Source: Hymenobacter sublimis
GTDB lineage: Bacteria > Bacteroidota > Bacteroidia > Cytophagales > Hymenobacteraceae
Assembly (NCBI RefSeq): GCF_023101345.1
Contig: NZ_CP095848.1
Location: 2,355,501-2,419,500 of the forward strand
DNA: 64,000 nucleotides
Direction of reading: 5' to 3'
Position numbers and translations under genes: made by a program. Of the stretch, positions 2,944-60,501 are shown one piece after another; positions within the stretch are counted from its first letter, which is position 1; each line of letters begins with the position of its first letter. The notes beneath the pieces are model-generated. The model saw only the letters and a program-made list of their open reading frames with translations, ran no database searches and was not told the origin of the DNA.

Positions 2944-3259
2944 GTTGCCTCATTCCTCGCCCCTACCCTCGCTTGCTGCGCGACATGGGGAGAGGGGAAC
3001 TAGTTATTTAGAAGCTAGGAGGAAAGATTTAGGAGGTAGAAGACAACTGAGCAAATGTTACAAAGGCCGTCATGCAGAGCGTAGCGAAGCATCTCGCTTG
3101 AATCGTTGAGGTAGTATAGTAACGTCAGCACGCGAGATGCTTCGCTGCGCTCTGCATGACAACCTTGTGAAATTGACGAGTTCTAACTATTCACACGACC
3201 TAGTTCCCCTCTCCCCATGTCGCGCAGCAAGCGAGGGTAGGGGCGAGGAATGAGGCAAC
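2944..3259. repeat. Nested palindrome: 60-bp perfect inverted repeats around an inner hairpin
   Basis: The outer arms 2944-3003 and 3200-3259 are exact reverse complements over all 60 bases. Between them sits a second palindrome, 3069-3097 with 3132-3160 (28 of 29 paired), whose core GTCATGCAGAGCG..GAAGCATCTCGC is shared with the element at 55293. No ORF of note lies inside. The spacer 2796-3342 holds nothing else I recognise. It may be a MITE-like or double-terminator element; no target duplication was found. Confidence 0.88.
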
Positions 3260-43039: not shown

Positions 43040-43076
43040 CCCGGTCAAACTGTCTCCGATTAGAAACTCGCTTAAG

Positions 43077-43157
43077 CTGTCATTCCGAGCGAAGGGAGGA
43101 ATCTAGGGTAGCCTTTTACAGTCTGACCCAGATTCCTCCCTTCACTCGGAATGACAG
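43077..43157. repeat. Palindromic intergenic repeat C between convergent genes
   Basis: Arms 43077-43104 and 43130-43157 pair at 27 of 28 positions (left arm starts CTGTCATTCCGAGCGAAGGG). It lies between the ABC transporter and the convergent protease gene, a position where terminators are expected. Related in layout to 1460, 3069 and 55293. Confidence 0.85.
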
Positions 43158-43204
43158 TTTTGGAAGGATTTCTACACCTAGTTACTAGTTGGCTATAGGC
43201 TAAC

Positions 43205-49277: not shown

Positions 49278-49295
49278 GCGCAGCGCTTTACTACA

Positions 49296-49354
49296 GCCCG
49301 CACCAAGCAAAAGCGCCCGGTCATGATGACCGGGCGCTTTTGCTTGGTGCGGGC
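49296..49354 (+). terminator. Long perfect terminator palindrome
   Basis: Two 29-nt arms around a single central G are exactly complementary (left arm starts GCCCGCACCAAGCAAAAGCG). It lies 18 bp after the lipoprotein stop and serves both convergent genes. Confidence 0.88.
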
Positions 49355-49419
49355 TTAAGCTCTTTTCAATGGCGAATAGTACGGCTCCCTCGTGAGGGCT
49401 AGAAGAAGCGTAAGGGGGC

Positions 49420-51135: not shown

Positions 51136-51144
51136 CCGGAAAAT

Positions 51145-51338
51145 GAGTACCTGAGTGAAGTACTGTCATGGCGAGGGCACTGAAGCTATCCGTCCTGACT
51201 GCGTGCTACTCTTCTAAAATGTGACAAGCCCATACCGCCGCGCTGGCAGTAAGGGCTTGTCAGTTTATTCGCCTTGTCGCAGAAGAGAAAACAGACGGCG
51301 CCACCTACTCGCCATGACAGTACTTCACTCAGGTGCTC
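51145..51338. repeat. MITE-like element with 31-bp terminal inverted repeats
   Basis: Arms 51145-51175 and 51308-51338 pair at 30 of 31 positions. Inside is a second hairpin TGACAAGCCC (51222-51231) / GGGCTTGTCA (51253-51262). It fills the spacer between the Spy-like gene and the convergent TauE gene. No ORF. No clear target duplication found. Confidence 0.8.
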
Positions 51339-51356
51339 AGGTGCTCATTCCCTGTT

Positions 51357-58323: not shown

Positions 58324-58353
58324 GCCCGACGTTCCGCCTTGTATTTTAGCCCC

Positions 58354-59757
58354 ATGAAAACCTTCTTCCGCAACATTCACCTCTACCTCAGCCTGGTTTC
58401 GGGGCTGATTATTGCCGTGGTCTGCCTGACCGGCGGCATCCTCGTCTTCGAGAAAGAGCTGGAGCAGGCCTGGCACCCGGAGCGCTACTTTGTGGCGCCG
58501 GTTGCTACCCCTGCCCTGCCCCTAGAGCGCCTCACGGCCGCCGTAAAAGCCTACAAAGCCGACGCTAAAATCACGGGCATGAAGGTGTACGCTGACCCCG
58601 CGCGCACCGTGGAGTTCAACTTGGCCGGCGCGCCCGGTGGCCCTGGCGGTGAGCACAAAGGGGAAGGCAAGGAGCAGAAAGCAGAAGGCCGCCAAGGCCA
58701 TGAGGGCCGCGCCGAAGCCGGAAAAGGCCCGCAAGCGGCAGGCCAGCGCGCCGAGGGCGGCCGCGGGGAAGACCAGGGCGGCAAAGGCGGCGCGGAAGGC
58801 AAAGGTGGCAAAGGCGGAGGCGGCGAAGGTGGCCGCGGCCCGGTGGTGTTCGTGAATCCCTACACGGCTACTGTAACCGGCGAGTTGAATTACCGCGAAA
58901 CGTTCTTTTTCACGATGATGGCCCTGCACCGCGGTATGGTGGGCGGCCCCATCGGCAAGCTGATTGTGGGCGTGAGCACCGTGATGTTCCTGTTCATCAT
59001 CCTGACCGGCCTGGTGCTTTGGTGGCCCGCTACCCGCAAGGCTGTAAAGCAGCGCCTGCAAGTGAAATGGACTGGCGGCTGGAAGCGCCTCAACCACGAT
59101 TTGCACATTGTGCTCGGGTTTTACTCGGCGCTGTTCCTGTTTGTGTTTGCCTTTACGGGGCTGGCCTGGTCATTTGAGTGGTTTAACAAAGGCATCTACG
59201 CCGTGACGAACTCGCCCATGCAACGCCCCGAGCCGCCAACTTCGGTAGTGCCGGGTGCTGCTACGGCTACCCCTGCTGTAACCCCAGAAGCTGGCGCCAC
59301 CCCGGCTCCGGCAGTGCCCGGCCTCACGGCAGATGCGGCCCTAGCCCGGGCTCGGGAGCTGGCTCCTTCATCGGTGTATTACTCGTTGCAACTACCGAAG
59401 GACCCTACCGGCAGCATTCGGGTAGCTACGCTGCGGCCTAACGCTACCTACGAAAACGCCACCGACGAAGCCTACCTCGACCAGTACTCGGGCCAGGTGC
59501 TAAGCCAGCAGACTTACGAGCAGCGCAACCTGGGGCAGCGCGTTCGGGGCATGTTTAAGCCCGTGCACACGGGTTCTATTTGGGGCTGGCCCTCTAAAAT
59601 TATCAGCCTGGTGGTGTGCGTGCTGGGCTTCACCTTCCCCATCACGGGCACTATCCTGTGGTTGAACCGCCTGCGCAAACAGCGGCGCAAGCAGGCCAAG
59701 CTAGAGTGTGTGGACAGCAAGGATAGTATTTTTACGCCATGCGCCGTCATGAACTAA
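58354..59757 (+). CDS. PepSY-associated TM protein, C-terminus altered by an IS
   Basis: A 467-aa PepSY/iron-uptake membrane protein. TM1 is near residues 12-32 (LYLSLVSGLIIAVVCLTGGILVFEKELEQAW); ALHRGMVGGPIGKLIVGVSTVMFLFIILTGLVLWWP and NHDLHIVLGFYSALFLFVFAFTGLAWSF are the classic His-containing helices; the last helix is near 415-440. An inserted tract (about 96-165) is almost entirely Gly, Lys, Glu, Arg, Ala and Gln. Residues 451-467 are encoded by the inserted IS. Before insertion the gene would have ended ..KLVAA-stop at 60510-60512. Members are thought to act in ferric-siderophore reduction or uptake. Confidence 0.88.
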   Translation: MKTFFRNIHLYLSLVSGLIIAVVCLTGGILVFEKELEQAWHPERYFVAPVATPALPLERLTAAVKAYKADAKITGMKVYADPARTVEFNLAGAPGGPGGEHKGEGKEQKAEGRQGHEGRAEAGKGPQAAGQRAEGGRGEDQGGKGGAEGKGGKGGGGEGGRGPVVFVNPYTATVTGELNYRETFFFTMMALHRGMVGGPIGKLIVGVSTVMFLFIILTGLVLWWPATRKAVKQRLQVKWTGGWKRLNHDLHIVLGFYSALFLFVFAFTGLAWSFEWFNKGIYAVTNSPMQRPEPPTSVVPGAATATPAVTPEAGATPAPAVPGLTADAALARARELAPSSVYYSLQLPKDPTGSIRVATLRPNATYENATDEAYLDQYSGQVLSQQTYEQRNLGQRVRGMFKPVHTGSIWGWPSKIISLVVCVLGFTFPITGTILWLNRLRKQRRKQAKLECVDSKDSIFTPCAVMN

Positions 59758-60501
59758 CCGAACGCGAATGGAAAATGGTCGAACCACACGCCCTCGGCCG
59801 GCTGGGCACGGGGCGCGACAACCGCTTGTTTGTCAACGCCGTGCTCTACCGGGTGCGCACAGGCGTGGCCTGGCGCGACTTGCCCGAGCGGTTTGGCCCG
59901 TGGAATACGGTGGCGCGGCGTTTCCGCCGCTGGGCACAAGCGGGCGTGTGGGAAGCGCTGTTTCAGGCCGTGCAGGAACCGGACTATGCCTGGGTGCTGG
60001 TCGACTCGACTACGGCCAAGGCCCACAAAGCGGCGGCCGGGCAAAAAAAAGCACGCCCGCAGCCGAAGCTCTAGGCCGCTCGCGCGGCGGTTTCTGCACC
60101 AAAGTGCATGCCGTCGTGGACGCGTTGGGCAACTGCCTGCACGTGGCTCTAACGCCGGGCGAAGCAGCCGACAGCCCGCAATTGCCCGGTTTGCTGGCGG
60201 CCTTGTCAGAACAACCCGGCGCAGTAGTCGCCGACAAGGCATATGACACGAACCACGTACTCAGTACGTTGGCCCAAGACGAAGTCGAAGCCGTCATCCC
60301 GCCCAAAGCCAACCGCCTCGACCAGCGCGACTACGATGAAAACCTGTATGCCGACCGCAACAAGGTGGAGCGCTTCTTCGGCCGTCTCAAAGAGGCCCGT
60401 GGCTTTGCGACCCGATACGAGAAAACTGCTACCTCCTTTTTAGCCGTGGCCCACCTGCTCGCTGCCCTCGATTGGATGCGCTAGCTGTCCACACAGCCTA
60501 G
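59701..60501 (+). mobile_element. IS5-family (IS427-like) insertion sequence, 793 bp, with CTAG duplication
   Basis: The element occupies 59705-60497, flanked by CTAG at 59701-59704 and 60498-60501. Terminal inverted repeats include TGTGTGGACAGC (59707-59718) and its complement (60484-60495). CTAG duplication, size, a two-frame DDE transposase and an A8G slip site are all as known for the IS427 group. It lies in the last codons of the PepSY gene, in the same orientation. Family assigned from these features, not from a database match. Confidence 0.9.
59739..60484 (+). CDS. IS5-family transposase, made by -1 frameshift
   Basis: The upstream frame (59739-60074) has MRRHELTEREWKMVEPH, LFVNAVLYRVRTGVAWRDLPERFGPWNTVARRFRRW and the first catalytic Asp in VLVDSTTAKAHKAA. 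The downstream frame carries VVADKAYDT (second Asp) and VERFFGRLKEARGFATRYEKTA (Glu of the DDE triad in the Y-2-R-3-E-6-K pattern). The frames join at A8G (60043-60051), a slippery run for -1 frameshifting. The fused protein is 248 aa. It looks intact. The PepSY stop codon (59755-59757) overlaps the start of this gene. Confidence 0.9.

Follow-up and report, generated by a model that had tools for sequence, protein, structure and literature searches.

The 316-nt palindrome at positions 2944 to 3259 of the window, the whole 64,000-nucleotide stretch of Hymenobacter sublimis DNA analysed here, is made of two nested dimers of short repeats. Outside is a dimer built from REP-like units of one family, designated E; inside is a second dimer, built from CGTC-tagged REPs of another family, designated A. 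The nested insertion is real, is lacking in the nearest relative examined, and is made of known kinds of element. We consider it probable that the A-dimer represents the core of an IS5-type miniature transposon (MITE) lying inside an E-dimer, with the outer arms kept alike by templating or by copying as a unit.

Two nested layers and an empty site

The left outer arm (2944-3003, minus strand) and the right outer arm (3200-3259, plus strand) are E-family units, each with the tip module ATGTCGCGCAGCAAGCGAG, found at 2968-2986 on the minus strand and at 3217-3235 on the plus strand. The sequence-only reading had taken these arms to be exact complements, and they do pair at 60 of 60 positions (100%) across 196 nt. 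Its observation of a second, near-perfect palindrome inside also holds, with inner arms of 38 nt (3063-3100 and 3129-3166) that are 89% complementary and lie 28 nt apart. The inner palindrome, 3063-3166, is the A-dimer. It is preceded by the left part of the E-dimer spacer (3004-3062) and followed, 26 nt from the REP arm, by the right terminal inverted repeat of the A unit (3187-3199, plus strand), which abuts a CTAG at 3200-3203. Folded as single-stranded DNA, the 316 nt reach -128.8 kcal/mol, against a mean of -42.7 for shuffled sequences (z -23), and none of 100 shuffles equals it.

The outer arms are the longest perfect pair among 16 inverted repeats listed for the 64-kb window (at least 22 nt, arms at most 600 nt apart). 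Elsewhere in the window are a 30-bp perfect inverted repeat with a 1-nt gap (49295-49355) and a 32-nt inverted repeat, 97% complementary, with copies 132 nt apart (51144-51339). A C-type REP dimer occurs at 1454-1542, where H. glacieicola has about 2.2 kb of other DNA, and a B-type dimer at 43074-43160, where H. glacieicola likewise has a B-type dimer. Perfect 60-nt arms are rare in Hymenobacter, yet there is another example, in H. rubripertinctus (locus L159, 7163-7331). In 805 kb of Hymenobacter sequence, 47 gap-free palindromes have arms of at least 40 nt, and the arms are perfect in 7 of them; this is a non-random sample, as most of its loci were chosen for holding the 18-mer of the tip module.

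Members of family A begin CGTCATGC and form predominantly head-to-head dimers, with about 70 nt between a forward arm and its reverse partner. Their tag, CGTC or TGTC, leads into a stem that starts with AT, as in CCGTCATGCAGAG from position 3068. For CGTC REPs, the available part of PMC3733652 tabulates loops of 4-5 bp, with exceptions noted; the tips of family A are longer and variable. A search of the H. sublimis genome with the inner palindrome returns 93 matches, on both strands, in 40 distinct places. An arm pattern built for longer tips, which misses the shorter-tip arms of the window itself, finds 78 arms in H. sublimis and 79 in H. glacieicola at up to 3 mismatches, and its reversed control finds none. 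On plasmids, four records, all from Hymenobacter, match the palindrome, each through its inner part alone; a search of phage sequences with the palindrome gave no match.

Relatives of the outer arm occur in 20 of 120 genus genomes (E at most 0.01), and diverged relatives of the family are present elsewhere in the H. sublimis genome. Among them are E units without the tip module that form dimers with A+T-rich spacers and have no A-dimer nested in them. The left part of the window spacer aligns with the spacer of an E-dimer (L278) at a score of 22.5, where the maximum for shuffles is 17. The earlier suggestion of a possible insertion of one family into the other is supported by the 40 genome places of the inner family, by the A-free copies of the outer family in the same genome, and by the alignment of the left spacer with one such copy. 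No E-dimer without an A-dimer is known at the site of the palindrome, so the order of the two insertions is something we infer. Nesting was counted in 6 of 53 outer dimers and in 0 of 103 neighbouring windows, an enrichment not taken as proof because the required spacer of at least 75 nt favours nested cases. By eye, an A-dimer also lies within a B palindrome with arms paired at 36 of 36 positions (L034), and an E unit lies within an F dimer in H. glacieicola (L284, L286).

The palindrome lies between the starts of two diverging genes, both of which begin toward it. The left gene, on the minus strand, encodes THUMP and RlmL-like domains; the right gene, on the plus strand, encodes a protein of 340 aa that has no Pfam family. 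H. glacieicola lacks the entire insert at the corresponding site, where window positions 2924 and 3273 correspond to 6110 and 6145 of the compared stretch; these boundaries come from BLAST, the MAFFT alignment being poor there. In 23 of 29 loci from relatives, the neighbour gene lies within 1.5 kb, at intervals of 137-1270 nt that do not always make the two genes immediate neighbours, and none of these 23 intervals holds a perfect inverted repeat longer than 11 nt; the other 6 loci have no neighbour gene within 1.5 kb. No clear target duplication was seen at the outer ends. A single copy and no empty site had been named in advance as grounds against a mobile element. The exact 60-nt arm indeed has no copy in the genome beyond the two in the window, yet an empty site exists. 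The proposal of a new non-autonomous mobile element therefore survives in part: the empty site in H. glacieicola and the lack of any such repeat in the 23 intervals speak for it. Yet the two layers belong to a known class, that of REP-type dimers, and PMC3733652 already describes such dimers nested in longer palindromes.

A shared tip module and the identity of the outer arms

The 18-mer TGTCGCGCANCAAGCGAG of the tip module is found in 33 of 120 genus genomes, and its reversed control in none. The loci examined contain 145 distinct 18-mer sites, of which Hymenobacter accounts for 111 and other taxa for 34; about 30 chance matches are estimated for a collection of that size. Two sites near locus ends and repeated contexts were dropped from the count. 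The base that precedes the 18-mer is A in 108 of the 111 Hymenobacter sites, compared to 6 of the 34 sites in other taxa. By a pattern rule, the Hymenobacter sites fall into families E (48, under a loose class rule that also took 4 of the 34 sites from other taxa), C (34), F (12), G (11) and A (1). The 5 left unclassified resemble, by eye, degenerate E, C or G arms. A freer module pattern matches 73 of 120 genus genomes, with 497 sites summed. Beyond the genus, 0 of 9 family genomes and 3 of 212 order genomes match, the latter with one poorly paired place each, while 12 of 20 genus genomes match in the same comparison.

The module appears between varied stems (ATTC, ATCC, ATGC, ATGT, ATTT and others) and also in arms of the CCCC type. 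Positions 5 and 17 form a Watson-Crick pair in 146 among 150 places listed, where shuffling of partners gives 93 and at most 107, although related module copies are not independent in this count. Counted by hand among the same 150 places, the pair is G-C in 114, C-G in 22 and T-A in 10, and all three forms coexist within single genomes, for example G002, G005 and G017. The module is a 19-nt mini-hairpin, common to REP families with unrelated stems and found with three covarying pair types. A stabilising effect of the module on single-arm hairpins was considered and dropped: in family F, the arm lacking the module folds well (z -3.66), whereas the arm carrying it does not (z 0.15). The second arm of one C dimer (L173) reads GAGCGAGGACGAAGG, which looks like the outcome of slippage between short repeats that removed the module.

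A partner arm was found by alignment for 58 of the 111 module sites, a count in which dimers with two modules enter twice. Among these partners, 33 hold the module or a recognisable part of it, 23 have another tip, and 2 align outside the tip only. Tips also agree within C-dimers: among the matches listed, 23 of 38 dimers in genome G012 (8.6 expected; one overlapping double match was dropped) and 11 of 17 in genome G022 (3.0 expected) have the same tip in both arms. The variable base of the module is T in 108 of 111 sites and C in one; it is G in the two arms of the window only. Shared tips and the private G both fit copying from arm to arm, or copying of whole dimers, and arm-to-arm copying is favoured for the window because no other copy with G was found. 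The perfect 60 bp would fit such copying, and template switching is described in the available part of PMC8604942 as homogenising the arms of inverted repeats.

Sharing of private bases is also what would be seen if the 316-bp palindrome had formed in place without nested insertion, its outer arms being built about an existing A-dimer by inverted duplication or template switching. The exact arm, being single in the genome apart from its partner, is consistent with such an origin, as is an A-dimer in L013 (1473-1620) whose arms extend 28 nt into the flanking sequence to reach 57 nt, of which 55 are paired. However, the genome has other dimers of the arm family, and one of them has a spacer similar to the left spacer here. 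We regard formation in place as unlikely, and favour insertion of an A-dimer into an E-dimer.

Terminal repeats of A-dimers and a proposed history

In several A copies the terminal repeat CTATCCACACAGCC, or a near match to it, flanks the REP arms at a distance of 14 nt at one end and 26 nt at the other. The offset test used 61 distinct A-dimers, 40 from H. sublimis and 21 from H. glacieicola, among which orthologous copies of the two species are not independent, and a query repeat taken from L019, itself one of the 61. From the 69 A loci, 8 were dropped, 5 without a dimer pair, 2 duplicates and 1 with a short flank. At 9 or more of 14 matching positions, the repeat occurs at offset 26 in 14 of 122 flanks and at offset 14 in 8 of 122, with at most 2 of 122 at any offset outside 13-15 and 25-27. 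Shuffled repeats (500 shuffles) give at most 8 at any offset, with a mean of 2.7; the signal at offset 26 therefore exceeds the shuffles, and that at offset 14 only equals their maximum. The 13-nt terminal inverted repeat is present on both sides at the expected offsets, at 8 or more of 14, in 11 of 61 A-dimers, compared to 0-1 of 61 for eight shifted pairs of offsets; the remaining 50 do not show both ends. One-ended repeats (21 of 61) were set aside as evidence, since shifted controls give 6-20 of 61.

C and D dimers show no peak of the terminal repeat. The B set has 3 matches at offset 26, which may be A variants admitted by the loose B pattern, and D-type REP dimers on plasmids of H. volaticus and H. 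monticola (L379, L380) have no such repeat by eye. The target of the IS5 family is YTAR. Equal flanks of this type occur in L022 (CTAA on both sides) and L279 (CTAG on both sides), and flanks are unequal in the other two-ended copies listed. The A copy in the window shows its right end only, at 3187-3199; its left terminal repeat is not recognisable and a left CTAG is absent.

As a family, A-dimers have terminal repeats that match those of an insertion sequence resident in the window. This IS5-family element (59705-60497, plus strand) has A-like terminal repeats, CTAG on both sides, and a length of 793 bp with two open reading frames in different frames. Both pieces score above cut-off for NF033580 (NCBIfam, IS5 family), and Pfam domains PF13340 and PF01609 are recognised. 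It is absent in H. glacieicola, where the empty site reads CTGG, and it is a candidate source of transposase for A-dimers. It was inserted at the end of an open reading frame, PepSY-like by eye, that at 58339-59757 now reads into the element. With IS5-like repeats on both sides at fixed distances in 11 of 61 cases, A-dimers resemble the central part of a miniature transposon of IS5 type.

On this evidence, the history of the palindrome would begin with an E-family dimer that carried the mini-hairpin module at both tips. An A-dimer, as the core of an IS5-type MITE and perhaps moved by an IS5 transposase, would then have entered the E spacer next to the CTAG on the inner side of the right arm. 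The insert between the start regions of the diverging genes would be younger than the split from H. glacieicola. The outer arms may have become identical through mutual templating at replication, by hairpin template switching or conversion, or the pair may have been copied as a unit. A broader reading is tentative, and we think it possible rather than probable: that the 19-nt hairpin, with its conserved loop GNATCAA, is an exchangeable recognition cassette passing across Hymenobacter among the tips of REP families whose stems are unrelated, and that at least one family of CGTC-tagged REPs spreads inside an IS5-type MITE, as its core.

Were both layers ordinary REPINs, they would have been moved by a RAYT, a Y1 tyrosine transposase that was present earlier or acts from elsewhere. 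In being intergenic dimers that fold as hairpins, they match REPINs as these are described in the available portion of PMC3116915, and Y1_Tnp is present in 83 of 120 genus genomes. But PF01797 was not found in the genome of H. sublimis, in a search that was positive in 5 of 14 control genomes, or in that of H. glacieicola, and the GTAG tag is absent from families A and E. Around 30 RAYT loci, CGTC-type units occur in 1, E in 1 and F in 0, compared to 5, 1 and 0 for 29 control loci. Two or more module copies occur in 34 of 83 genomes with RAYT and in 23 of 37 without (p 0.047), a difference opposite in direction to the one expected from RAYT-driven movement. We regard this explanation as quite unlikely. 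RAYT genes in other Hymenobacter (L134, L136, L144, L150) are flanked by repeats of their own, CCCAGGGCTTCAGCCCTGGG; GGCCGCGTAGCGG, which do not belong to the families studied here.

A transcription terminator or structured RNA under selection is very improbable, for although the fold is very stable and the inner palindrome has Rfam matches, none of which reaches its gathering score and the best of which has E 3.2e-8, the palindrome lies between the starts of diverging genes, has 0 terminator-like sites, and is absent in relatives with the same neighbours. A known RNA was rejected, the best Rfam match reaching 42.3 bits against a gathering score of 97 and being read as a match to a hairpin. 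The combination of GC stem, T tract and position downstream of a gene that marks an intrinsic terminator is not found here.

Relation to known repeat systems

Searches of the open-licence literature found no report of IS5-like ends on CGTC-tagged REP dimers, of unrelated REP families that have a covarying tip hairpin in common, or of tips shared within dimers together with a private base such as that in the window, and no account there of Hymenobacter REPINs or of the arm sequences. Judged by title, no paper there on IS5-family MITEs dealt with REPs, and none on palindromes in Hymenobacter was relevant. If the broader reading of an exchangeable cassette and a MITE-borne REP family is true, CGTC REPs, described as transposase-free, gain a vehicle, and a hairpin-handling enzyme gains a defined substrate. 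The presence of REP dimers bounded by terminal inverted repeats beside an IS5-family element with like ends makes mobility testable, and the covarying hairpin common to the tips offers a defined bait for a hairpin-handling protein. Tips shared within dimers suggest a way in which long perfect palindromes can persist without selection on their sequence.

Families A, B and C resemble the CGTC-tagged REPs of Bacteroidetes presented in the available text of PMC3733652: their units start with CGTC or TGTC followed by AT, and form head-to-head dimers. That text, by Di Nocera, De Gregorio and Rocco (2013, PMC3733652), also describes dimers whose two loops differ, and REP dimers enclosed by long palindromes. 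In Hymenobacter, unlike the CGTC REPs in that portion of the paper, the loops are longer and one loop module is found across unrelated stems. The same portion reports no association with a transposase, whereas here a subset of A-dimers has IS5-like ends.

REPINs with RAYT or TnpA-REP, as described in the available parts of PMC3116915 and PMC8266576, share with the Hymenobacter elements their inverted REP doublets, hairpins and intergenic location. Here, in contrast, no RAYT was found in the genome, and the families are not associated with RAYT loci.

Arm homogenisation by template switching has reportedly been shown in yeast, in RNA hairpins and in mutation of E. coli (PMC8604942, PMC8794818, PMC7202029). 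The likeness is that two arms of an inverted repeat turn identical; here we infer it from shared tips and a private base. IS5-family MITEs are alike in their IS-like terminal repeats, their YTAR-like flanks, and their short, non-coding nature. The A-dimers of Hymenobacter differ in that the core is a CGTC REP dimer and in that most copies have decayed ends or none.
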